A stretch of DNA of 64,000 nt from Bradyrhizobium sp. CB1717 (lineage in GTDB: Bacteria; Pseudomonadota; Alphaproteobacteria; Rhizobiales; Xanthobacteraceae). The notes under the pieces are model-generated. The model saw only the letters and a list, made by a program, of their open reading frames with translations. It was not told the origin of the DNA and searched no databases. The stretch is from positions 1,178,001 through 1,242,000 of the forward strand of contig NZ_CP121666.1 of assembly GCF_029714325.1 (NCBI RefSeq), read 5' to 3'. Below, one piece after another: positions 6,580 to 16,876 of this stretch; within the stretch, counting starts at the first letter, position 1, and each line of letters opens with the position of its first letter. The translations under genes were made by a program, and so were the position numbers.

Positions 6580-7251
6580 ATGAACGCTCCCTCGACCCAT
6601 CTCGTCATTGCCGATGATCACCCCCTGTTCCGTGATGCGCTCCGGCAGGCTGTGGCGAGCGTCCTGACCTCGGCCAGGATCGACGAGGCCGGATCGTTCG
6701 AGGATCTGACCAAGCTCCTGGAACAGACCTCCGACGTCGACCTGATCCTGCTCGACCTCTCGATGCCCGGGATCTCAGGCTTCTCCGGTCTGATCTATCT
6801 GCGCGCGCAATATCCGGCCGTCCCGGTGGTGATCGTCTCGGCCTCTGACGACAGCGCGACGATCCGCCGCTCGCTCGATTTCGGCGCCTCCGGCTTCATC
6901 CCCAAGCGGTTCGGCGTCGAGACGCTGCGCGATGCCATTCTCAAGGTGATGGAAGGCGACGTCTGGGTTCCCGCCGACACTGACCTGTCCGCCGCCGCCG
7001 ATCCCGACATGACGCGCCTGCGCGACCGCCTGGTGACGCTGACCCCGCAGCAGGTCCGGGTCCTGATGATGCTGTCCGAGGGCCTCCTCAACAAGCAGAT
7101 CGCCTACGAGCTCGGCGTCTCCGAAGCCACCATCAAGGCTCATGTCTCGGCGATCCTGCAAAAGCTCGGTGTCGAGAGCCGCACCCAGGCCGTGATCGCC
7201 GCCGCGAAGATCGCCGGCGGCCAGTGGAAGCAGGGCACGCCGACGGGGTGA
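6580..7251 (+). CDS. NarL/FixJ-type response regulator
   Basis: This 223-residue two-component response regulator has an N-terminal receiver domain (about 6-125) with acidic pocket Asp12/Asp13, phospho-acceptor Asp59 in LLDLSMPG and conserved Lys109. A LuxR-type helix-turn-helix domain follows (about 150-213; TPQQVRVLMMLSEGLLNKQIAYELGVSE). No histidine kinase gene is adjacent, so it is an orphan unless paired with the hybrid kinase at 13367-16876. The ATG at 6580 was preferred to the upstream GTG at 6541 because the receiver fold begins a few residues later. It is divergent from the MHS transporter, which it may control. Confidence 0.93.
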   Translation: MNAPSTHLVIADDHPLFRDALRQAVASVLTSARIDEAGSFEDLTKLLEQTSDVDLILLDLSMPGISGFSGLIYLRAQYPAVPVVIVSASDDSATIRRSLDFGASGFIPKRFGVETLRDAILKVMEGDVWVPADTDLSAAADPDMTRLRDRLVTLTPQQVRVLMMLSEGLLNKQIAYELGVSEATIKAHVSAILQKLGVESRTQAVIAAAKIAGGQWKQGTPTG

Positions 7252-7355: not shown

Positions 7356-10196
7356 CTATGATGTCTGCAGCAGGCTGTTGGCCGCCGTGATATCCGCGGT
7401 CTCCGAGCCCTCGGCGAAGCCTTCGAGCGCCGATTGAAGCAATAGCCTTGCTTCCTCGTGCCGGTCGCGTTCGACGAGGAATTCGGCAAGATCGATTGCC
7501 GCGCGCAGTTCCCAGGCTTTCGCGCCCTTGCTGCGGCTGAGCTCCAGCGATTGCATGAGGCAGGCCTCTGCGTCCTCGATCTGCGGCTCTGGCAAGTGCA
7601 AGCGGACCTTGGCCTTCATCCGCAGCAGCTCGGGCATGTAGAGATGATCGCCGCTTTGCTCGACGAGGCGGATCGCATCGTCGATCACGCGCACGCTTTG
7701 CTCGACCTGACCGAGTGCCAACAAGCCTTGAACCAGCGCGATGTTGAACGTCGTGGTGAGCAGCTCGTAACCGGCGTCGTGGAGCTCGCGCAGGCAGGCT
7801 CTTATCGTCTCGACGCCGCCGGCGGCGTCGCCGCGCCGGATCGCCAGCTCGCCTTTGACGCCCCGACCGACCGCGAGATAAGGCCCCATCGAGCGCGCCT
7901 CGGCATGCGCGATGAAGCGGTCGATGTTCTCTTCGGCATCGTCGAGCTCTCCGCTCCAGAGATCGATCGAGACCGTCCAGATCAGCGCGATGCAAAGCGT
8001 GATCGGATGGTCCATCTGCGCGGCCTCGGTGACCGTCTGCCGCGCCAACCGCCGCGCATCCGCGGTACGGCCCTGCAGCCACAGCTCCCGTGCCAGCGAG
8101 ATGCCGGCGCGGTTGCGGTGATCGAAGCCGTGGACCGTGCTGATCCGCTCCGTGCCCGGCCCCCGCCAGGCAGCCTCGAGCACGTTCAGCGCATCGCGGT
8201 GCTCGCCGGCCAGATGCAAGGAGACGCCGAGGAGTGAATGGGCGAGGGCGATGGATGCGGCATCGCCCAGCGTCTCGGCGACGTTGAGGCTCTGCCGCGC
8301 ATAACCAAGCGCGGCGTCGAACTGTCCCATCCGCTCGTGGAAGATATGCATCCGGCCGAGCAGCTGAAGCTGGTTCGGCGCGTCGCCGCGCGCCTGTGCG
8401 ATCGCAAGGCTTCTGCGCAGCGCGGACAGCGCCGCCTCGCTGCCGCCGCGCGTGAACATCAAGGTCAGGCCGAGGGCGGCCTGGATGTGCATTTCCTCGG
8501 CGCTGCCGCGCGAGGTTGGATCGATCGCCAGCAGCGCCCGTTCCGACCAGCGGCGGCATTCGATCAGCAGTGACATCGCGAGAAAGATCGGAGCTGCAGC
8601 GGCAGCCAGCGCTATACCGATGTTCGCATCGCCATTCGCGCCAAAACACCAGCCCAGAGCGGCGCGCACATTGTGAAGCGCGGAGAAATGGATGGCCCGT
8701 TCGTCGGCGCTCGGCACCGTCGCCCATGTCGTGCCGGCCTGCTCCAGCCATCGCCGGTAGTAGATCGCGTGGCGCGCCGAGAGTGCCGCGTCATCAGGCT
8801 CGACCTCGAACAGATAGGCGCGCGTCGTGTCGAGCAGACGGTAGCGCATCATGGCGCCGATCGGTCGCGGTGCGACCATCGACTTGGCGACGAGGCTGTC
8901 GATGGCATCGAACAGCCGGGCGCGATCGACGTGCGCGTCGGGCACGACCTCGAGCGCGGCGTCGAGGGTGAAATGGCCGGCGAAGACCGCGAGCCTGCGC
9001 AGTACGAGGCGCTCGGTGTCGGACAGCAGCCCGTAGCTCCAGTCCAGCGTCGCTTGCAAGGTCTTCTGCCGTGGCGGCGCGGTGCGCTGACCCTGCCAGA
9101 GCAGATTGAGGCGCTCGTCGAGCAGCGCCGCCGTCTGCTCCAGGCCGTAGGCCTCGACCCGTCCTGCAGCGAGCTCGATCGCCAGGGCCACGCCGTCGAG
9201 CTTGCGGCAGATGCCGGCGACGATCGCGGCATTGCCGTCGTCGAGCGCGATCTGCGCGCCGCCGGCAGTGGCCCGTTCGAGGAAGAGCTGAAGCGCCGGA
9301 TAGGTCTGCGCGGCCGCCGCAGTCAGTCCGGCACTGTCCGGCGGAACGGCGAGCGGCGCCAATCGATAGACCTGCTCGCCCTCGACACGCAGGGCTTCAC
9401 GGCTGGTTGCGAGGATATGGACATGCGGCGCGGCGTGGAAGATCTCCGCCGCGAGTGGCGCCGCCGTGGCAATGACGTGCTCGCAATTGTCCAGGATCAG
9501 CAGCATCCGTTTGTCGCGCAGATGCGCGAGCAGCGCGGGCAGGGGATCATCCGTCTCGGCCGGCAGGCCCAGCATCAACAGGATCGACGTGATCACGAGA
9601 TAGGGATCGCTCAGAGCGGCAAGATCGACGAAGTGTGCGGCGTCGGAGAAAGTTTCGAGCAGGTCGTGAGCGATCGCCACGGCAACGGCCGTCTTGCCGA
9701 CGCCGCCCGGGCCGGCGATCGTGACGAAGCGGGCGCTGATGAGCTTGTCCGAGATGGCGGCGACGGCATCGTCGCGTCCGACCATGCGTTGCAGCCGGTT
9801 CGGCAGCTTCACCGGCGGCAGCTCCATCCGCGATGACGGGCGCGGTTTCGCCGCAATCTGCGTTTGCGAGATCGGCGCCACGAAGCAATAGCCGCGGCCC
9901 GAGAGCGTGGTGATGTAGCGGGCGCCGTCCTTGCCGTCGCCGAGGGCTTTGCGAAGCGCCGCGATGTGAAAGCGTAAGTTCGCCTCCTCGACGGCCATGC
10001 CGGGCCAGACGCGCGCCATCAGGTCCCACTTGCTGATGGCCTCGTTCGGCCGCGACATCAGTGCGATCAGCGTATCGAAGCTCTTGGCGCCCATCGGCAG
10101 CGCGACGCCGTCGCGCATCACGAGCCTCTCATGTGGCCTCACGGTGAATGGCCCGAACGACAGTGTTGTTGCAGCGGGCGCGGCCGGATCAGTCAT
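7356..10196 (-). CDS. Large winged-helix / AAA-type ATPase / TPR transcriptional regulator
   Basis: This 946-residue regulator combines an OmpR-type winged-helix DNA-binding domain (about 12-107; ends TLSGRGYCFVAPI), an NTPase of the STAND/AAA class, and a long C-terminal array of helical TPR-like repeats. The P-loop is GPGGVGKTA (about 162-170) and the Walker B region is MLLILDNCEH. Such proteins bind DNA after nucleotide- and ligand-dependent changes sensed by the repeat region. The start MTDPAAPA was chosen because the winged helix begins about ten residues later; the 47 residues upstream are not domain-like. It is divergent from the Ohr, hydrolase, P460, SDR cluster and is its obvious candidate controller. 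The ligand is unknown. Confidence 0.88.
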   Translation of the reverse strand: MTDPAAPAATTLSFGPFTVRPHERLVMRDGVALPMGAKSFDTLIALMSRPNEAISKWDLMARVWPGMAVEEANLRFHIAALRKALGDGKDGARYITTLSGRGYCFVAPISQTQIAAKPRPSSRMELPPVKLPNRLQRMVGRDDAVAAISDKLISARFVTIAGPGGVGKTAVAVAIAHDLLETFSDAAHFVDLAALSDPYLVITSILLMLGLPAETDDPLPALLAHLRDKRMLLILDNCEHVIATAAPLAAEIFHAAPHVHILATSREALRVEGEQVYRLAPLAVPPDSAGLTAAAAQTYPALQLFLERATAGGAQIALDDGNAAIVAGICRKLDGVALAIELAAGRVEAYGLEQTAALLDERLNLLWQGQRTAPPRQKTLQATLDWSYGLLSDTERLVLRRLAVFAGHFTLDAALEVVPDAHVDRARLFDAIDSLVAKSMVAPRPIGAMMRYRLLDTTRAYLFEVEPDDAALSARHAIYYRRWLEQAGTTWATVPSADERAIHFSALHNVRAALGWCFGANGDANIGIALAAAAAPIFLAMSLLIECRRWSERALLAIDPTSRGSAEEMHIQAALGLTLMFTRGGSEAALSALRRSLAIAQARGDAPNQLQLLGRMHIFHERMGQFDAALGYARQSLNVAETLGDAASIALAHSLLGVSLHLAGEHRDALNVLEAAWRGPGTERISTVHGFDHRNRAGISLARELWLQGRTADARRLARQTVTEAAQMDHPITLCIALIWTVSIDLWSGELDDAEENIDRFIAHAEARSMGPYLAVGRGVKGELAIRRGDAAGGVETIRACLRELHDAGYELLTTTFNIALVQGLLALGQVEQSVRVIDDAIRLVEQSGDHLYMPELLRMKAKVRLHLPEPQIEDAEACLMQSLELSRSKGAKAWELRAAIDLAEFLVERDRHEEARLLLQSALEGFAEGSETADITAANSLLQTS

Positions 10197-10313
10197 CGCG
10201 GAATCTTGCTCATTTGGAAAACCGGATAACCAGCGGGCGCCGATCCGGCAAGACCGGCCTTGCATCGGCATCAGACCGCGTTTGCAGGCCTCCTGATCGG
10301 GTTCCCTGCCGGC

Positions 10314-10330
10314 CTCACAACTTCTCACAA
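10314..10330. promoter_or_regulatory. Direct repeat CTCACAA, 10-bp period, candidate operator
   Basis: CTCACAA occurs at 10314-10320 and again at 10324-10330, exactly one helical turn apart. It lies in the 196-bp divergent gap between the winged-helix regulator and the ohr-like gene. OmpR-type winged helices commonly bind tandem direct repeats with this spacing, so this may be the regulator's site. That link is inference. Confidence 0.45.
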
Positions 10331-10392
10331 GTCCCAACGGGTGTCCTGCGGGGGCGGCTGATAGTCAGTTGCGCGACGGCAAGGAGACTTTC

Positions 10393-10812
10393 ATGACGCA
10401 AGCGGCAAAGCTGCTCTACACGGCCAGGACCCGCACCAGCGGCGGGCGGCAGGACGGCCTGTCCCGCAGCTCCGATGGCCGCCTGGATGTCAAATTGTCA
10501 CCGCCGGGCGGTGACGGCATCGGCACCAATCCCGAGCAATTGTTCGCGGCCGGCTGGTCGGCATGTTTCGAAGGCGCGATGGAGATCGCCGCGCGCAAGC
10601 GAAAAATCGTGCTTCCGAGAAAAAGCGCGATCGATGCGGAAATCGATCTTCTTCTCGATGAGGGCACTTACGCCCTCCGGGCGCGCCTCAATGTCAGCCT
10701 GCCGGGCCTCGATCGCGAGGTCGCCCGCGACATCGTCGATGAGGCGCACGAGACCTGCCCCTACTCAAAGGCCGTCCGCGGCAACATCGACGTCGCGGTC
10801 GCACTGATCTGA
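10393..10812 (+). CDS. Organic hydroperoxide resistance protein, OsmC/Ohr family
   Basis: This 139-residue thiol peroxidase reduces organic hydroperoxides in the cytoplasm. The two catalytic cysteines are in GWSACFEGAM (Cys56) and HETCPYSKA (about Cys121), with the Ohr-type spacing. The N-terminal YTARTRTSGGRQDG strand and the substrate-loop region LSPPGGDGIGTNPEQLFAAG match the Ohr branch rather than classical OsmC. The ATG at 10393 follows AAGGAG at a good distance; the open frame starts at 10369 without such a site. No ohrR gene is adjacent. It is the first gene of a plus-strand cluster, 36 bp before the exported hydrolase. Confidence 0.92.
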   Translation: MTQAAKLLYTARTRTSGGRQDGLSRSSDGRLDVKLSPPGGDGIGTNPEQLFAAGWSACFEGAMEIAARKRKIVLPRKSAIDAEIDLLLDEGTYALRARLNVSLPGLDREVARDIVDEAHETCPYSKAVRGNIDVAVALI

Positions 10813-10848
10813 CCCATCATCACCAATCATCAACGAGGTAGCAACATC

Positions 10849-11877
10849 ATGAAGCAGCTCATCGACCAGCACCGCCGCAAGTTTCTTGGCGTCGCCGCGG
10901 GAAGCGTCGCTGTGGGTCTCGGCGTCCTCGACCTTGCCCGCGCGGAGACGGAAGCGCCGCGCACCGCCGCGTCGAATGCATCCTTCGGCCCGATCAAGCA
11001 GATCGAGGCCGGTGTCCTCAATGTTGGCTATGCCGAGGCAGGTCCGTCGAACGGTCCGGTGGCGATCCTGCTGCACGGCTGGCCCTACGACATCCACGCC
11101 TTCGTCGATGTCGCGCCGATCCTGGCGAAGGCCGGCTATCGCGTGATCATCCCGTATTTGCGCGGCTACGGCACGACGCAGTTCCTCTCCCGCGAAACGC
11201 CGCGCAATGGCGAGCCGGCCGCGATGGCCGCCGACATCATCGCGCTGATGGACAAGCTCGACATCAAGAAGGCGGTCGTTGCCGGCTTCGACTGGGGCGC
11301 GCGCACCGCCGACATCATCGCCGCACTGTGGCCGGATCGCTGCCGCGCGCTGGTGTCGGTCAGCGGCTATCTGATCTCCAGCCAGGCCGCCGGCGCCGCC
11401 CCATTGCCGCCATCGGCCGAGCTGCAATGGTGGTACCAGTTCTATTTCGCGACCGAGCGCGGCCGCGCCGGCTACGAGAAGCACACGCACGATTTCGCAA
11501 AGCTGATCTGGAAGCTGGCCTCGCCGCAATGGAAGTTCGACGACGCCACCTTCAATCGCAGCGCGGCGGCGCTGGGCAACCGGGATCATGTCGCGATCAC
11601 GATCCACAATTACCGCTGGCGGCTTGGGCTTGCCCAGGGCGAGGCGAAGTATGAGGAGCTCGAAAAGAAGCTCGCGGCAGCTCCCGTCATCGGCGTGCCG
11701 ACGATCACGATGGAAGGCGACGCCAACGGCGCGCCGCATCCCGATCCGAGCGCCTATGCCAAGAAATTCTCCGGCCGCTACGACTTTCGCCTGATCACAG
11801 GCGGCATCGGTCACAATCTTCCGCAAGAGGCACCGCAGGCCTTTGCCAAGGCAATCATCGACGCCGACGGCGCCTGA
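10849..11877 (+). CDS. Tat-exported alpha/beta hydrolase, epoxide-hydrolase-like
   Basis: This 342-residue hydrolase has a twin-arginine signal (HRRKFLGVAA, residues 8-17, then a hydrophobic stretch to ARAE), so the mature enzyme is periplasmic and folds before export. HGWP at 76-79 forms the oxyanion hole. The nucleophile is Asp148 in AGFDWGA, which points to epoxide or halide hydrolysis rather than esterase activity. Asp291 and His322 (GGIGHN) are likely to complete the triad. Epoxide hydrolases with Asp nucleophiles usually act on hydrophobic epoxides. The gene follows the Ohr-like gene closely, and both may deal with products of lipid oxidation. Confidence 0.88.
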   Translation: MKQLIDQHRRKFLGVAAGSVAVGLGVLDLARAETEAPRTAASNASFGPIKQIEAGVLNVGYAEAGPSNGPVAILLHGWPYDIHAFVDVAPILAKAGYRVIIPYLRGYGTTQFLSRETPRNGEPAAMAADIIALMDKLDIKKAVVAGFDWGARTADIIAALWPDRCRALVSVSGYLISSQAAGAAPLPPSAELQWWYQFYFATERGRAGYEKHTHDFAKLIWKLASPQWKFDDATFNRSAAALGNRDHVAITIHNYRWRLGLAQGEAKYEELEKKLAAAPVIGVPTITMEGDANGAPHPDPSAYAKKFSGRYDFRLITGGIGHNLPQEAPQAFAKAIIDADGA

Positions 11878-11890
11878 GGATTTTTTCAGT

Positions 11891-11919
11891 TCCTCGGTCC
11901 AGCGCAGCTGGACCGAGGA
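11891..11919. terminator. Strong hairpin after the hydrolase gene
   Basis: Perfect 13-bp arms (11891-11903 and 11907-11919) close a GCA loop, starting 14 bases after the hydrolase stop codon. No T run follows on the plus strand, so it may be an mRNA stabiliser or a partial terminator between hydrolase and cytochrome P460. Confidence 0.6.
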
Positions 11920-11949
11920 TGTGTCGCGAGCCCAGCTTGAAGAAACGTC

Positions 11950-12513
11950 ATGACATCTATCGAATCTGAAAAGAAAAAGCGGACCTATGCGACGGCTATC
12001 ACGCTGGCTGTGCTGTTTCTCGTCGTTCTCCTGACTTCTATGCCCTATTTGGTCTCAATCGCTCTTGCCGAAGGACCGGCACAAGGCAACACGGCAGACG
12101 CCTCGCCGATCTTCGGCGTCACGATTCCACAGGGCTACAAGCAGTGGGAGCTGATCGCGCCGGCCGAGGAGGCGGCGCCGCTCGACGAGCTTCGCGCCGT
12201 CCTCGGCAACCAGACCGCAATCGAGGCCTATCAGGCCGGCAAGCTGCCGTTCCCGGACGGCACCATTCTGGTCAAGCGTGCCTGGAAGCGGAAACAGTCA
12301 CCGGAATTCGCATCCGCGACGATTCCCGGCGCCGCGACCACGGTCCAGGTGATGGTCAAGGATTCCAAAAAATACGCCTCGACCGGCGGCTGGGGTTTTG
12401 GCCGGTTCATCAACGGCAAGCCGGTCGACGAAGCCCAGCACCGCACCTGCTTCGCCTGCCACGAAGCCCGCGCCAAGAGCCGCGATTATGTCTTCACGCG
12501 GCTCGCGCCGTGA
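11950..12513 (+). CDS. Cytochrome P460 family protein
   Basis: The product is a 187-residue c-type heme protein. An N-terminal hydrophobic segment (about 15-40) anchors or exports it, and the mature part is periplasmic. The heme motif CFACH (Cys167, Cys170, His171) lies close to the C-terminus, as in cytochrome P460 proteins. Family features include FPDGTILVKRAW near residue 101 and GGWGFGRF at about 146. Characterised P460s oxidise hydroxylamine or bind NO, and cytochrome c'-beta members bind NO. Whether this one is catalytic depends on the Lys-heme cross-link, which cannot be seen here. It lies 72 bp after the hydrolase gene. Confidence 0.88.
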   Translation: MTSIESEKKKRTYATAITLAVLFLVVLLTSMPYLVSIALAEGPAQGNTADASPIFGVTIPQGYKQWELIAPAEEAAPLDELRAVLGNQTAIEAYQAGKLPFPDGTILVKRAWKRKQSPEFASATIPGAATTVQVMVKDSKKYASTGGWGFGRFINGKPVDEAQHRTCFACHEARAKSRDYVFTRLAP

Positions 12514-12531
12514 GACCATATGGAGGCTAGC

Positions 12532-13353
12532 TTGAAGACCTGGTTCATCAGCGGCAGCTCTCGCGGGCTTGGCCGCGCCATCACGGAAGCGGCGCTCGCC
12601 GCGGGCGACCAGGTGGTTGCCACGGCGCGGGCGCTCGAGCCGCTTGAACTGTTGCAGGCGCGTTTCGGCGAAAGGCTGCGGCTCGCGACCCTCGACGTCA
12701 CCGATGAGGCCGCGGCGCAGGCGGCCATCGGACTTGCCGTGACGACATTCGGCGGCCTCGATGTGGTCGTGAACAACGCCGGCTATAGTGACCTCGGATC
12801 GGTCGAGGACACGAGCCTGGATTCGTTCCGGCGGCAGATCGAAGCCAATTTGATGGGCACCATCATCGTCACCAAGGCGGCGATTCCGGTGCTGCGCCGG
12901 CAGCGCCGTGGTCACATCATGCAAGTCTCGTCCGTCGGCGGCCGGATCGGTGCCCCGGCGCGCGCGGCCTATTCGGCCGCGAAATGGGGAATCGAGGGCT
13001 TTTCGGAGTCGCTGGCGCGCGAGATGGCGCTGATCGGCGTGCATGTGACAGTCGTCGAGCCCGGCGGCTTCCGGACCGGTTTTGCCCAGGCCGCGCATGC
13101 GACCGGCGAAGGGCGTCCGGAGTACGATGCCGTCGTCGGCGCTGCCGTCAGGATGCAACGCGACTATGACGGCCGCCAGCCGGGTGATCCGGCCAAGGCC
13201 GCGGCCGTGGTTCTGAAGCTCGCCGACATGGATCGTCCACCCTTGCGGATTGCGCTCGGCAGCGACGCCGTCAACGCCATCGCCGCGACGGACAGGCTCC
13301 GCCTCGAAGAACTGGAGAAGTGGCGCGTGCTCGGCGTATCGACGGACTACTGA
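12532..13353 (+). CDS. Short-chain dehydrogenase/reductase, probable TTG start
   Basis: This NAD(P)-dependent SDR has the cofactor motif SGSSRGLG near its start, NNAG at about 81-84, and the catalytic Ser with Tyr147-x3-Lys151 in AYSAAKWG. The substrate is unknown. An ATG at 12520 opens the frame, but GGAGG at 12522-12526 sits 5 bases before TTG 12532. Starting there gives MKTWFISGSSRGLG, the normal SDR beginning. I therefore place the start at TTG (273 residues). It is the last gene of the ohr-to-P460 cluster and converges on the hybrid kinase gene with only a 13-bp gap. Confidence 0.88.
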   Translation: MKTWFISGSSRGLGRAITEAALAAGDQVVATARALEPLELLQARFGERLRLATLDVTDEAAAQAAIGLAVTTFGGLDVVVNNAGYSDLGSVEDTSLDSFRRQIEANLMGTIIVTKAAIPVLRRQRRGHIMQVSSVGGRIGAPARAAYSAAKWGIEGFSESLAREMALIGVHVTVVEPGGFRTGFAQAAHATGEGRPEYDAVVGAAVRMQRDYDGRQPGDPAKAAAVVLKLADMDRPPLRIALGSDAVNAIAATDRLRLEELEKWRVLGVSTDY

Positions 13354-13366
13354 CGAGCGGCGTATC

Positions 13367-16300
13367 TCACTCCGCCGCCACCATCTGCTGCGTGCGCCAC
13401 TGGCCGAGCAGGGCGCGGAGCGAAGCCGGCTTCACCGGCTTGTTGAGCACCGCGATTTTCTCCTCGCGCGCGGCCTGTTGCACGGCGGGGCTGCGGTCGG
13501 CGGTGATCAGGATCGCGGGAATGGTGTCGCCGAAGCGGCGGCGGATGTCGCGGATCGCGGCGATGCCGTTGCCGCGGTCGAGGTGATAGTCGACGAGCAG
13601 GCCGGTGACGCGCTTGCCGGCAGCCTCGATCGCGGCGATCGCGGCCTCGGGATCGGCAACCGCGATCACCTCGGCGTCCCAGGCCTTCAGCAGCGTGCGC
13701 ATGCCGTCGAGGATCGCGGCATCGTTCTCGATGCAGACGATCAGCGCGCCCGCGATCGGCGTGCGGGCCAGCGGCGTGGCGCTGGTGACGGCGGCGGTGA
13801 GGGTGATCGCTTTGGCCGTCGGCACCGTCACCGAGAAGACCGAGCCGCCGCCGACATTGGAGTCGATGGCGATGCTGTGGTTGAGCACGCGCGCCAGCCG
13901 TTCGACGATCGACAGCCCGAGACCGAGGCCGCGCGCGATCCGCGCGCCTTGCTCCAGGCGGTGGAATTCCTTGAAGATCTCGCCGCGCTTGACCGGCGGG
14001 ATGCCGACGCCGGTGTCGTAGACGCAGATCTTGAGCGAGGCGCCCTGGCGGCGGCAGCCGACCAGCACGCGGCCGCGCGGGGTGTATTTGATCGCGTTGG
14101 AAATCAGGTTCTGGAGCAGGCGCCGCAGCAAGAGTCGATCCGACTGCACCGGCAGCGAGCAGGGCACGAAGGCGAGGTCGAGGCCCTTGGCGCGCGCGAT
14201 CGGCGCGAACTCGATCTCCAGCGAGCGCATCAGGTCGGCCATCTTGAAGCTCGAGATCGAGGTCGCCATCGCGCCGGCATCCAGCCGGGAGATGTCGAGC
14301 AGCGCGCCGAGGATCTCCTCGATGGCCTGGAGCGACTCGTCGATGTTCTCGACCAGCCGCGTCTCCTCGCCATTGTGCTGGCGCTCGACCAGGCTGGTGA
14401 CGTAGAGCCGGGCCGCGTTCAGCGGCTGCAGAATGTCGTGGCTCGCAGCGGCGAGGAAGCGCGTCTTGGAGATGCTGGCATCTTCCGCCGTGCTCTTGGC
14501 CAGCGCGAGTTCCGAGTTCAGCCGGGTCAGCTCCTCGGTGCGATCGCGCACGCGCTTTTCCAGCGTCGCATTGGCGCGCTCGAGCGCTTCGGCCGCCTCG
14601 AAGGTCGGCGTGACGTCTGTGAAGGTGATGACGAAGCCGCCGCCGGGCATGCGGTTGGTGAGCACCTCGATCACCATGTGGCGTTCCGGCAGTCGCTCGA
14701 GATAGGGCTCGCTGTCGGTGGTGTAGGCCACGAGCCGCTGCTCGATCATCGCTTCCCGGTCGGCCTCATTGTCCGGATCGCTCACACCCATGAATTCCAG
14801 GATTTCCCGCAAGGGCGTGCCGAACTGAATGAAATGCGGAGGAACATTGAGGAGATCGCCGAACTGCCGGTTGGAGCAGATCAGCTGCAGGTCGGCGTCG
14901 AACACCGCGATGCCCTGCCGGACATGATTGAGCGCGGTCTGGAGGATCTCGCGGTTGAAATGCAGCGCCGCGTGGGAATCGTCGAGCAGTTTTAGCGCGG
15001 CTTTAGCGGAGACGGTGCGCTTGCGCAGCAGCAGCGACATCACGAGGCGCGAGGAGGCCGCGCCGATCGACGAGGCGATCAGGTGCTCGGCGTGCTGCAA
15101 CAGCTCGAAATCGGCGGGTGCCCCGGGCTCGAGCCGCACATTGCGCCGCGCAGAGAAGGCTTCGAAGGAATGCCGGGCGCGGTCGGGCCCGAGATACTGC
15201 GCCACCGTGGTCTGGATGTCCTGCACCGTGACGGTGGTGCGCCAGCGGCGGAAATTCGGAGCGATCGGGGCGAGCGTGTTGGGTACGAACAGATCGGCCT
15301 GCACCAGCTCGATGGAGGATGGCCGCCGCGCCAGGGAGAGCAGCACATAGGTGAGGATGTTGAGCGACAGCGACCAGATCACGCCGTGCATCAGCGGCGG
15401 CAGGTCGGCGCCGAACAGCGCCTGCGGCCGCAGCGCCTCGATTCCGAACGGACCATGCTGGAGCAGCAGGATGCCCGTCGTCGAGGAATCCATGAAGCTC
15501 GGTATGAACAGCGTGTAGAGCCACACCGCAAAACCCACCAGCATGCCGCCGATCGCGCCACGTGCGGTCGCGCGCCGCCACAACAGCCCGCCGAAGAAGC
15601 TCGGCGCGAGCTGGGCGATGGCGGCAAAGGAGAGCAGGCCGATCGCGACGAGCTGGGTGTTGCCGAGCGCGCGATAGTAGAAATAGGCCATCACCATGAT
15701 GGCGAAGATCGCGAGCCGGCGCGAGCGCAGCAGGAAGTCGCTGAAATCGGCGCCTCCGGTGCGTCCCTCCGGCCGCCGCTGCAGCACCAGCGGCACCACG
15801 AGGTCGTTCGACACCATGATCGAGAGCGCGACGCATTCGACGATCACCATCGCGGTCGCCGCCGACAGGCCGCCCACGAAGACCGCGACGCTGAGCAGAT
15901 CCGCGCCACCCTCCATCGGCAGCGCCAGCACGTACATGTCAGGGTCGGCCGCGCCGAACGGGAAGGTGACGAGGCCGGCGAGCGCGATCGGGATCACGAA
16001 CAGATTGATGGCGACGAGGTAGAGCGGGAACAGCCAGCGTGCGCGACCGACCTCGGCATCGCTGGAATTCTCCACTACGCTGACGTGGAACTGGCGCGGC
16101 AGCAGCATGACCGCGCACAGCGACAGTAGCGTCATGGTCAGGAAGTTACCGATCGACGGCGAATAGTTGATCGTGCGCACCGCCTCCGGCGTCTTCATCG
16201 CGCGCTCGATGAGTTCGTGCGGCGAGAACATCCAGAAGGTGACGAAGATGCCGGCGGCGAGGAAGGCGACCAGCTTGACGATGGATTCGGTCGCCACCGC

Positions 16301-16876
16301 CAGCATCAATCCGTGCTGGTGCTCGGTCGCGTCGGTCTGCCGGGTGCCGAACAGCACGGCGAAAGCCGCCATCGCCAGCGTCACCATCAGCGCCATGTCG
16401 CCGAGGATCGGGATATGGGAGAAGGCCTGGTCCTCGCTCAGGATCGTCTCCAGCGAGGAGGCGACGGCCTTGAGCTGGAGCGCGATGTAGGGCACCGAGC
16501 CGATGATCGCGATCAGCGCCACGGTCGCCGCCACCGCCTGGCTCTTGCCGTAGCGCGCGCCGATGAAGTCGGCGATCGAAGTGATGTTGTGGGCTTTCGC
16601 AAGCTGGATCACGCGGCGCAGCACGCCCGTGCCGAGACCGATCATCAGGACCGGCCCGACATAGATCGCGAGGAAGTCGGTCGAGGTGCGCGTGGCGAAG
16701 CCGACTGAGCCGAAGAAGGTCCAGGAGGTGCAGTAGATCGCCAGCGACAGGGGATAGATCAGCCCGGACGCGCGACCGGGTCCGGCTGGCGAGCGGCGGT
16801 CGCCATGGCTCGCCACCAGGAACAGGAAGCCGATATAGCCGAAGGCGGCGGCGATCACGCCCCAGTCGTGCAGCAT
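13367..16876 (-). CDS. Hybrid sensor histidine kinase with sodium/solute-symporter-like sensor domain
   Basis: This is a 1169-residue membrane kinase. Residues 1 to about 520 form a multi-helix SSS (PutP-like) domain that could sense or carry a solute. A linker and PAS domain follow (about 640-760), then a coiled coil (760-800). The HisKA box has His813 in AASHDILQPL. The catalytic ATPase has NLISNAIKYT (about 923), DTGVGIP (954-960) and GLGLGLSIV (983-991). A C-terminal receiver domain has phospho-acceptor Asp1096 in LLVDYHLD. The layout matches the NahK/CbrA-like group. No cognate output regulator is adjacent; the orphan NarL-type regulator at 6580 is one possible partner. Confidence 0.92.
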   Translation of the reverse strand: MLHDWGVIAAAFGYIGFLFLVASHGDRRSPAGPGRASGLIYPLSLAIYCTSWTFFGSVGFATRTSTDFLAIYVGPVLMIGLGTGVLRRVIQLAKAHNITSIADFIGARYGKSQAVAATVALIAIIGSVPYIALQLKAVASSLETILSEDQAFSHIPILGDMALMVTLAMAAFAVLFGTRQTDATEHQHGLMLAVATESIVKLVAFLAAGIFVTFWMFSPHELIERAMKTPEAVRTINYSPSIGNFLTMTLLSLCAVMLLPRQFHVSVVENSSDAEVGRARWLFPLYLVAINLFVIPIALAGLVTFPFGAADPDMYVLALPMEGGADLLSVAVFVGGLSAATAMVIVECVALSIMVSNDLVVPLVLQRRPEGRTGGADFSDFLLRSRRLAIFAIMVMAYFYYRALGNTQLVAIGLLSFAAIAQLAPSFFGGLLWRRATARGAIGGMLVGFAVWLYTLFIPSFMDSSTTGILLLQHGPFGIEALRPQALFGADLPPLMHGVIWSLSLNILTYVLLSLARRPSSIELVQADLFVPNTLAPIAPNFRRWRTTVTVQDIQTTVAQYLGPDRARHSFEAFSARRNVRLEPGAPADFELLQHAEHLIASSIGAASSRLVMSLLLRKRTVSAKAALKLLDDSHAALHFNREILQTALNHVRQGIAVFDADLQLICSNRQFGDLLNVPPHFIQFGTPLREILEFMGVSDPDNEADREAMIEQRLVAYTTDSEPYLERLPERHMVIEVLTNRMPGGGFVITFTDVTPTFEAAEALERANATLEKRVRDRTEELTRLNSELALAKSTAEDASISKTRFLAAASHDILQPLNAARLYVTSLVERQHNGEETRLVENIDESLQAIEEILGALLDISRLDAGAMATSISSFKMADLMRSLEIEFAPIARAKGLDLAFVPCSLPVQSDRLLLRRLLQNLISNAIKYTPRGRVLVGCRRQGASLKICVYDTGVGIPPVKRGEIFKEFHRLEQGARIARGLGLGLSIVERLARVLNHSIAIDSNVGGGSVFSVTVPTAKAITLTAAVTSATPLARTPIAGALIVCIENDAAILDGMRTLLKAWDAEVIAVADPEAAIAAIEAAGKRVTGLLVDYHLDRGNGIAAIRDIRRRFGDTIPAILITADRSPAVQQAAREEKIAVLNKPVKPASLRALLGQWRTQQMVAAE

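Follow-up and report, generated by a model that had tools for sequence, protein, structure and literature searches.

A cluster of genes in Bradyrhizobium sp. CB1717, located at positions 7356–13353 of a 64,000 nucleotide stretch of contig NZ_CP121666.1 (positions 1,178,001–1,242,000; this whole stretch is referred to here as the window), is probably an organic-hydroperoxide/electrophile stress operon under the control of a divergent STAND transcription factor. Gene content, a conserved neighborhood, conserved catalytic residues and a conserved tandem repeat carry this assignment. The operon is made up of genes for an Ohr-family peroxidase (ohr), an alpha/beta hydrolase (abh), a cytochrome P460 and sometimes a short-chain dehydrogenase (SDR), and elsewhere it is joined by genes for a quinone oxidoreductase, an epoxide hydrolase of the EHN type and another alpha/beta hydrolase. 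Every part comes from a known family; taken together, and under a regulator of this type, they are undescribed in the open-licence literature of PubMed Central (PMC) as far as full-text searches there go, none of which turned up a description of the set. This agrees with the original prediction, made from the sequence alone, that the set corresponds to no named system.

Gene content and catalytic residues of the cluster

The open reading frames (ORFs) of the cluster were found at the positions first proposed, and their domains and residues confirmed the predicted set of a 946-residue regulator, Ohr, a hydrolase with a twin-arginine (Tat) export signal, P460 and SDR. The regulator gene (7356–10196, reverse strand, 946 aa from its ATG) is divergent from ohr (10393–10812), abh (10849–11877), the P460 gene (11950–12513) and the SDR gene (12520–13353), all on the forward strand. 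The gaps in this series are 36, 72, and 6 bp, which would suit a single transcript. No sigma-70 promoter-like site was found in a scan of the cluster, and the three terminator-like sites compare with 2.3 in shuffles, i.e., chance level, both scans saying little in such genomes. Families and catalytic residues support the wider proposal of an uncharacterised stress-type cluster with enzymes for peroxides, epoxides, and carbonyls, as follows.

The Ohr protein (139 aa from its ATG) scored 154.8 bits with TIGR03561 against a cut-off of 88.85 and matches structure 4mh4. The positions of the catalytic Arg, Glu and two Cys of this thiol peroxidase family are near-invariant (R19, E48, and C122 in 62 of 62 rows, C58 in 60 of 62).

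The hydrolase possesses an Abhydrolase_1 domain, and its residues 44–340 of 342 match 5bov, a "putative epoxide hydrolase" (E 2.9e-137). Its leader carries an RR-x-F-L twin-arginine signal. Conservation was read from loci of which 80 had been retrieved by the patterns ILLHGWPY or AELQWWY and 39, from a phylum draw, were independent of these patterns. D148, H322, and P79 were present in 121 of 121 rows and H76 in 120, with the tyrosines Y196 and Y199 in 121 and Y255 in 120; these correspond to features of epoxide hydrolases, namely an Asp nucleophile, a base provided by His, the oxyanion motif HGxP and a pair of cap tyrosines. The protein is thus probably of the epoxide-hydrolase type, with esterase or dehalogenase activity also possible. 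The SDR was identified by a match to adh_short and by residues S138, Y151, and K155.

The P460 protein is a c-type cytochrome of the P460/c′-beta superfamily (PF16694, E 9.5e-40), having the fold and the CXXCH haem motif, and its top match in both sequence and fold is McP460, a hydroxylamine oxidase. The position of the cross-linking lysine (Lys78 of McP460) is K109, with Lys in 49, Arg in four and Ala in one of 54 rows, and from this a Lys cross-link is predicted. The cap arginine, R82, is also present. In an ungapped alignment to 6hiu, the position of the distal carboxylate (Asp102 in McP460, Glu96 in NeP460) is occupied by Gln133, and Gln stands there in 53 of 53 readable P460 relatives. 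As the model of the protein is moderate (pLDDT 67), the claim for Gln133 rests on sequence alignment. According to a review, hydroxylamine-oxidizing members of the superfamily carry a distal carboxylate such as Asp102 of McP460, and an inactive P460 was not made active by the exchange Ala131Gln (PMC11928373). The same review refers to "halfway house" members whose functions are yet to be resolved (PMC11928373). The pocket therefore appears ill-suited to a hydroxylamine oxidase, and on the residue test and the review the hydroxylamine/NO pathway was downgraded for this P460 clade; P460 as a route for reactive nitrogen, raised in the original prediction, is not supported.

Conservation of the gene neighborhood

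Neighborhoods were compared in two samples anchored on the hydrolase. One comprised the best 80 of at least 595 confirmed relatives, the 31 closest of which (L023–L053) have hydrolases of 85% identity or more. For the other, the phylum draw, 398 genomes drawn evenly were searched with the hydrolase; 48 of the 398 (own included) gave a match at E 1e-70 or better, and every place outside the own genome whose hydrolase was at least 64% identical was fetched, 39 in total, 28 of them from other genera. The samples overlap, L042/L104 and L052/L107 probably being the same genomes, and both favor neighbors of the hydrolase.

Within the stretches around the 39 loci, Ohr was found in 16, P460 in 14, the regulator (at least 40% identity) in 11, EHN in eight, and SDR in six. 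The corresponding counts for the 28 loci of other genera were 11, nine, four, seven, and three, the regulator, Ohr and P460 occurring jointly in four of the 28, and for 20 control stretches from the same genomes every partner count was 0. Genome-wide searches placed 14 of 21 P460 matches outside the own genome within 10 kb of a hydrolase ortholog, against 0.065 expected, and 16 of 31 Ohr matches, against 0.085 expected. Among the 31 closest listed loci, Ohr was present in 23, P460 in 24, the regulator in 23, and SDR in 11; SDR is missing from L023, the nearest relative among the matches listed, and its proposed place as a core member was not upheld. The closest named relative of the hydrolase among the matches listed is that of B. 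huanghuaihaiense (97%).

Most of the set recurs well beyond close strains, as the original prediction had asked. Gluconacetobacter sacchari (L054) has the regulator divergent from EHN-Ohr-ABH-P460-SDR-hydrolase-oxidoreductase genes (ABH denoting the Tat-signal hydrolase), and two Mesorhizobium loci have it opposite Ohr-ABH-P460-hydrolase-oxidoreductase. In Rhizobium sp. CB3090, a plasmid DNA search showed the regulator opposite genes for an EHN epoxide hydrolase, Ohr, ABH, P460 and a second hydrolase, in that order, and in Phyllobacterium opposite Ohr-ABH-P460-hydrolase-quinone oxidoreductase. The same search gave incomplete sets, with Ohr and EHN in Ensifer, Ohr in Rhizobium TH2, ABH and EHN in Bradyrhizobium 195, and EHN in Variovorax. 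Two genomes of another class (L123, L132) hold Ohr, the regulator, EHN, ABH, P460, and SDR, with the regulator and Ohr some kilobases off. In the CB3090 locus (L001, 12374–13248) a remnant of the SDR gene occurs as two unannotated pieces.

In the window, the cluster lies between a gene for an ErdR-like LuxR response regulator (6583–7251, forward strand; 245.8 bits, below the cut-off of 390) and a convergent gene for a hybrid kinase of the NahK/ErcS family (13367–16876, reverse strand; 421.7 bits, above the cut-off of 400), the latter 13 bp from the end of the SDR gene. In L039, L041, L044, and L051 the hydrolase gene stands between ORFs like these two, i.e., at the same genomic place. These reduced loci, along with the partial sets, indicate a core of Ohr-ABH-P460 with the regulator that is gained and lost piecewise, SDR being optional.

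Two further observations concern the distribution of the cluster. A record of Frankia sp. RB7 (L043) contains a Bradyrhizobium-type cluster (regulator 82%, hydrolase 88%), the assembly being probably misnamed or contaminated. Cyanobacterial loci (L084, L095, L096, L099) have the same hydrolase (67–68%) with an EHN epoxide hydrolase downstream. PADLOC returned a marginal TPR match and nothing else, and identity as a defence system was dropped.

The STAND regulator and the tandem repeat

The regulator possesses, above the cut-offs, Trans_reg_C (34–105), AAA_22/NB-ARC (142–244) and TPR domains including TPR_12. Its AlphaFold model (pLDDT 78.6) found the STAND-TPR protein 6mfv as top Foldseek match (E 1.7e-9); Apaf-1 and domain III of MalT were among the other matches. 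It thus combines the NB-ARC-type P-loop ATPase, TPRs and DNA-binding domain of a STAND transcription regulator. Assignment to SARP/AfsR failed (65.2 bits with the NCBIfam AfsR model, cut-off 1430), and no MalT model was among the NCBIfam matches listed. No MarR-family match was obtained for the seven proteins of the window that were scanned, the regulator there being of the STAND type and not an OhrR.

In a tree of 46 such regulators, a clade of 18 rows (support 100/99) contains that of the window along with regulators of the same cluster type from Gluconacetobacter, Mesorhizobium, Inquilinus, and Rhizobium; for two of the 18 rows (L157, L161), neither Ohr nor EHN is present in the stretches that were read (L173, L169). 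The Gluconacetobacter row is nested among Rhizobiales and this, with the copies on plasmids, suggests horizontal movement. Regulator-bearing plasmid records numbered 43 at 1e-150 or better, and ten of these, chosen by annotation, were read in addition to those opened from the first plasmid DNA search. Anchored on the regulator, pRL9 of R. johnstonii 3841 has regulator/EHN-VOC-Ohr and R. grahamii regulator/EHN, ABH, Ohr. The ten plasmid regulators chosen by annotation (48% identity or less) had Ohr nearby in one case (L209) and catalase in one (L208).

The own genome, a single contig of 9.23 Mb, encodes five more full-length paralogs (33–45% identity). Genes near these code for a Dps-like ferritin, an alpha/beta hydrolase, VOC, OsmC, MsrA, and cytochrome b561 together with a catalase-like protein. 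In an order-wide search with the regulator, seven of 15 fetched stretches hold an EHN, Ohr, OsmC, MsrA or catalase-like gene, four of the seven (L171, L175, L180, L181) being one orthologous Bradyrhizobium cluster; L183 was left out of this count, having been picked because its cluster was already known. Genes for STAND paralogs are interspersed with those for VOC, EHN, OsmC, and MsrA in L018 and L019 (own genome, C1:3260000–3279900 and 2516000–2535900), L171, L175, L177, L180, and L181, stretches which also hold the catalase-like protein, cytochrome b561 and Dps, and L175 has three such regulators within ~18 kb. The regulator gene is split into several ORFs in L002 (5859–8720) and L204 (Phyllobacterium, R. 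gallicum) and in one Bradyrhizobium (L048), and L225 and L227 have short pieces of it beside an intact repeat and ohr.

This repeat, CTCACAA-N3-CTCACAA (TTGTGAG-N3-TTGTGAG on the regulator strand), is the proposed operator and lies exactly at 10314–10330, between the regulator and ohr. The direct repeat with a 10-bp period that had been predicted is therefore real, and it is well conserved. Of 27 rows with a regulator of at least 76% identity (window included), 25 have it exact and two with one mismatch, and with L048 and L050, missed at first through the shape of their ORFs and both exact, all 29 close rows are exact or one base off. In an alignment of 26 close rows its 17 bp have a mean identity of 0.977, ranking 13th of 403 alignment windows, the higher-ranked ones listed falling within ohr. 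The own genome has one exact copy, and one one-mismatch site elsewhere, equal to the backwards control (one). Across 60 genomes of the genus the exact repeat occurs in 19, at 21 places in total, with 0 of 60 for the control. Sixteen of the 21 copies lie between the regulator and ohr (in two of these the regulator ORF is a short piece only), two directly upstream of abh with neither the regulator nor Ohr, and three elsewhere; 18 of the 21 are thus at this locus, and the repeat belongs to the operon. The three off-locus copies (L220, L234, L237, all Bradyrhizobium) are due to chance or represent further targets, and ~1 kb from the copy in L220 another winged-helix ORF begins.

OmpR-type winged helices use tandem repeats on one face of the DNA, and a 10-bp period would place two half-sites in this way. 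A degenerate form, TTRTKAK-N3-TTRTKAG, occurs on the same strand upstream of most regulators of the cluster type. Among the 20 rows that had served to define the pattern, seven reached p ≤ 0.05 against shuffles (mean mismatches 2.85 vs. 4.21), p-values which are optimistic since the pattern was written after some of these loci had been viewed. Among held-out regulators of about 50% or more, seven of nine were positive (L148, L149, L161, L002, L204, L206, L207); L002 and L204 share one site sequence and are not independent, and L206 has a perfect tandem, TTGTTAG-N3-TTGTTAG. The pattern was negative at L208 (48%), L004, and L007, and none of the other paralogs tested reaches p 0.05. One paralog clade keeps a similar pair at 10-bp spacing, TYGTTAGACGTTGCAAG.

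Interpretation and comparison with known systems

A number of observations weigh against a stress operon governed by its adjoining regulator. Nine of the 39 hydrolase loci have none of the partners sought, and seven of the 31 closest listed loci lack Ohr and P460, two of which (L045, L052) end shortly upstream of abh, as L038 does likewise. Six of the eight reduced loci (L038, L039, L041, L045, L052, L053) keep the repeat upstream of abh, exact in four and with one mismatch in two, and L044 and L051 are without it. No full-length regulator above 46% was found in any of the seven reduced-locus genomes that could be searched, five of which have the repeat; the best full-length regulator is at 45–46% in four of these five and 40% in the fifth, and at 40% or none in the two genomes without the repeat, a 371-residue piece reaching 48% among the seven. 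The degenerate repeat was found in six of the ten source-set rows with a regulator above 50% and is missing in four, and it is missing at two of the nine held-out regulators (L152, L153). No sensing site could be assigned in the regulator, whose invariant cysteines (C238, C330, C547) are in segments that we take to be structural. Finally, three of the ten distant plasmid regulators (L210, L211, L214; Rhizobium and Bosea) adjoin ADH-tautomerase-hydrolase-MBL-DsrE genes and two adjoin malonate decarboxylase, the distant regulators beside other gene sets being of 40% identity or less.

A stress-only role for the whole regulator family was rejected on this last account: the family is broader than stress, and the clade of the window is the part of it that is tied to Ohr/EHN. 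Retention of the repeat upstream of abh, with neither the regulator nor Ohr beside it, means that the adjoining regulator is not the sole possible reader and is not needed for the repeat to be kept, which makes the case for the repeat itself stronger and that for an exclusive link weaker. The regulator is still a likely reader, though not exclusively, and a STAND paralog may take its place in genomes that have lost it, a possibility on which the sample of seven genomes proves nothing.

For the stress operon, the following mechanism can be proposed. Organic hydroperoxides or their products would reach the regulator and load on the TPR superhelix of its MalT/AfsR-like ATP switch. The protein would then assemble, its winged helices occupying two 7-bp half-sites one helical turn apart, and from the tandem repeat would switch on the divergent operon; after its loss, a paralog may serve as reader of this repeat. 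In the cytoplasm, Ohr would reduce organic (lipid) hydroperoxides to alcohols, and SDR and the quinone oxidoreductase, where present, would clear carbonyl by-products, the SDR by reducing them. In the periplasm, the Tat-exported hydrolase may open epoxides or cleave oxidized esters, helped in many relatives by the EHN epoxide hydrolase, and the P460 haem protein may bind or consume peroxide or NO. The fullest version of this proposal is put forward tentatively, as it is rather unlikely to hold in all parts together: apoptosome-like STAND ATPase transcription factors would sense lipid-oxidation products through the TPR superhelix and not by Cys oxidation, paralogs would share the tandem-repeat operator, and a two-compartment clean-up would employ P460 of a third functional class, Lys cross-linked, matured by peroxide, with Gln for the carboxylate and acting on peroxide or NO, not hydroxylamine.

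An alternative, which we judge unlikely, is a catabolic or xenobiotic island in which one plant or soil compound, an epoxide or ester, is sensed by the regulator and broken down by the hydrolases together with SDR and quinone oxidoreductase, with Ohr and P460 as accessory protection. The composition, rich in hydrolases (EHN, ABH, the second hydrolase and quinone oxidoreductase co-occur), would agree with it, as would the plasmid-borne copies in rhizobia, the metabolic clusters beside distant regulators and the fact that it is ABH, not Ohr, that persists in the reduced Bradyrhizobium loci. Set against these, genes for transporters and ring cleavage are absent from the gene set of the window, Ohr was found outside the genus more often than any other partner sought (11 of 28), and ABH also adjoins DipZ, MsrA, and an OhrR-like gene. 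Published induction data touch on this question. In B. japonicum, indole-3-acetic acid (IAA) induces blr3428 and bll4012, 1 mM raising the Ohr gene blr3428 17-fold (PMC3788728), a response that would be in favor of the island. In Bradyrhizobium, bll4012 and bll0735, both Ohr genes, are induced by H2O2, as is bll3418, "putative epoxide hydrolase 1" (PMC3420878). None of these four genes could be tied to those of the window, blr3428 to its ohr included, by locus-tag look-ups or by names among the best 120 of 229 protein matches, and they were set aside as proof of induction.

The other settings in which the enzymes occur bear on a less probable explanation, periplasmic repair under oxidative or chlorine stress, in which ABH and P460 would serve protein/lipid quality control under HOCl or singlet oxygen and Ohr would be one co-induced gene. 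A two-component kinase accompanies ABH in 13 of the 39 loci and a DipZ-type membrane protein in 11, each with 0 of 20 in the controls. L075, L083, L089, L117, L118, L131, and L141 combine a two-component system, DipZ and Ohr with ABH, and some have MsrA, which in L075 is beside DipZ; in L170, a stretch of the STAND type, Ohr and ABH occur with a piece of DipZ. BCAL1763–1766, comprising three exported proteins and Ohr and alike by description only, are induced by NaOCl and H2O2 (PMC2830190). The other listed regulator clusters with Ohr and ABH show no DipZ or MsrA match. The least likely explanation, at best a slim prospect, is reactive-nitrogen defence, in which P460 would oxidize hydroxylamine or bind NO and the other genes guard against peroxynitrite-type damage; the top match to McP460, K109, and R82 would suit it, and Gln133 in all 53 relatives and the failure of Ala131Gln (PMC11928373) speak against it.

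To return to the hydroperoxide stress operon, MarR-family genes beside ohr offer an indication of its inducer. In Rhizobiaceae CPCC 101076 (L090) such a gene is divergent from ohr-P460-ABH-dipZ, and its N-terminal segment, LADFLCFAVYSANLAYG, is OhrR-like; L075 and L083 have one by MarR homology. As OhrR senses organic hydroperoxides (PMC5201249), the placing of ohr-P460-ABH under an OhrR-like gene is the best hint of an inducer that sequence provides. The OhrR of the cited papers is a thiol switch, and a STAND-controlled equivalent would be a second principle of sensing for lipid-peroxide-type stress. The presence of the cluster in rhizobia, often on plasmids, and in an acetic acid bacterium would make such a principle relevant to the survival of rhizobia under plant defence chemistry, and the cluster gives a genomic setting to a P460 subclass with an atypical pocket.

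With regard to known systems, the regulator resembles AfsR, MalT, and 6mfv in its NB-ARC switch and TPRs. AfsR has a BTAD and MalT a LuxR domain; unlike these, the regulator has an N-terminal OmpR-type winged helix, and neither domain is among its Pfam matches. The hydrolase shares GFDWG, WWYQFYF, and NYRW with 5bov in alignment, and the P460 protein has Gln133 where that of Methylococcus capsulatus (6hiu/9hrk) has its distal carboxylate, Asp102. In BCAS0084–0086 of Burkholderia cenocepacia, an analogy that favors the stress operon, ohr and an exported hydrolase, a lipase, are co-induced by H2O2 and NaOCl as the pair BCAS0085–0086 (PMC2830190), but with a TetR regulator and a hydrolase annotated as lipase that is likened to ABH by description only. 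In a second analogy, EstR-EstC of Agrobacterium tumefaciens, an alpha/beta hydrolase, the cumene hydroperoxide-inducible esterase EstC, is divergent from its regulator with a short-chain dehydrogenase gene nearby (PMC5201249); EstR however is of the MarR family with palindromic operators, the set as described is without Ohr or P460, and the comparison with ABH is by description only. A further parallel in arrangement is OhrR-Ohr, where an Ohr-family peroxidase is divergent from its regulator and which L090 extends to ohr-P460-ABH-dipZ; the cluster of the window differs in having a 946-aa STAND ATPase in place of a MarR-family Cys sensor and in adding an exported hydrolase and P460.

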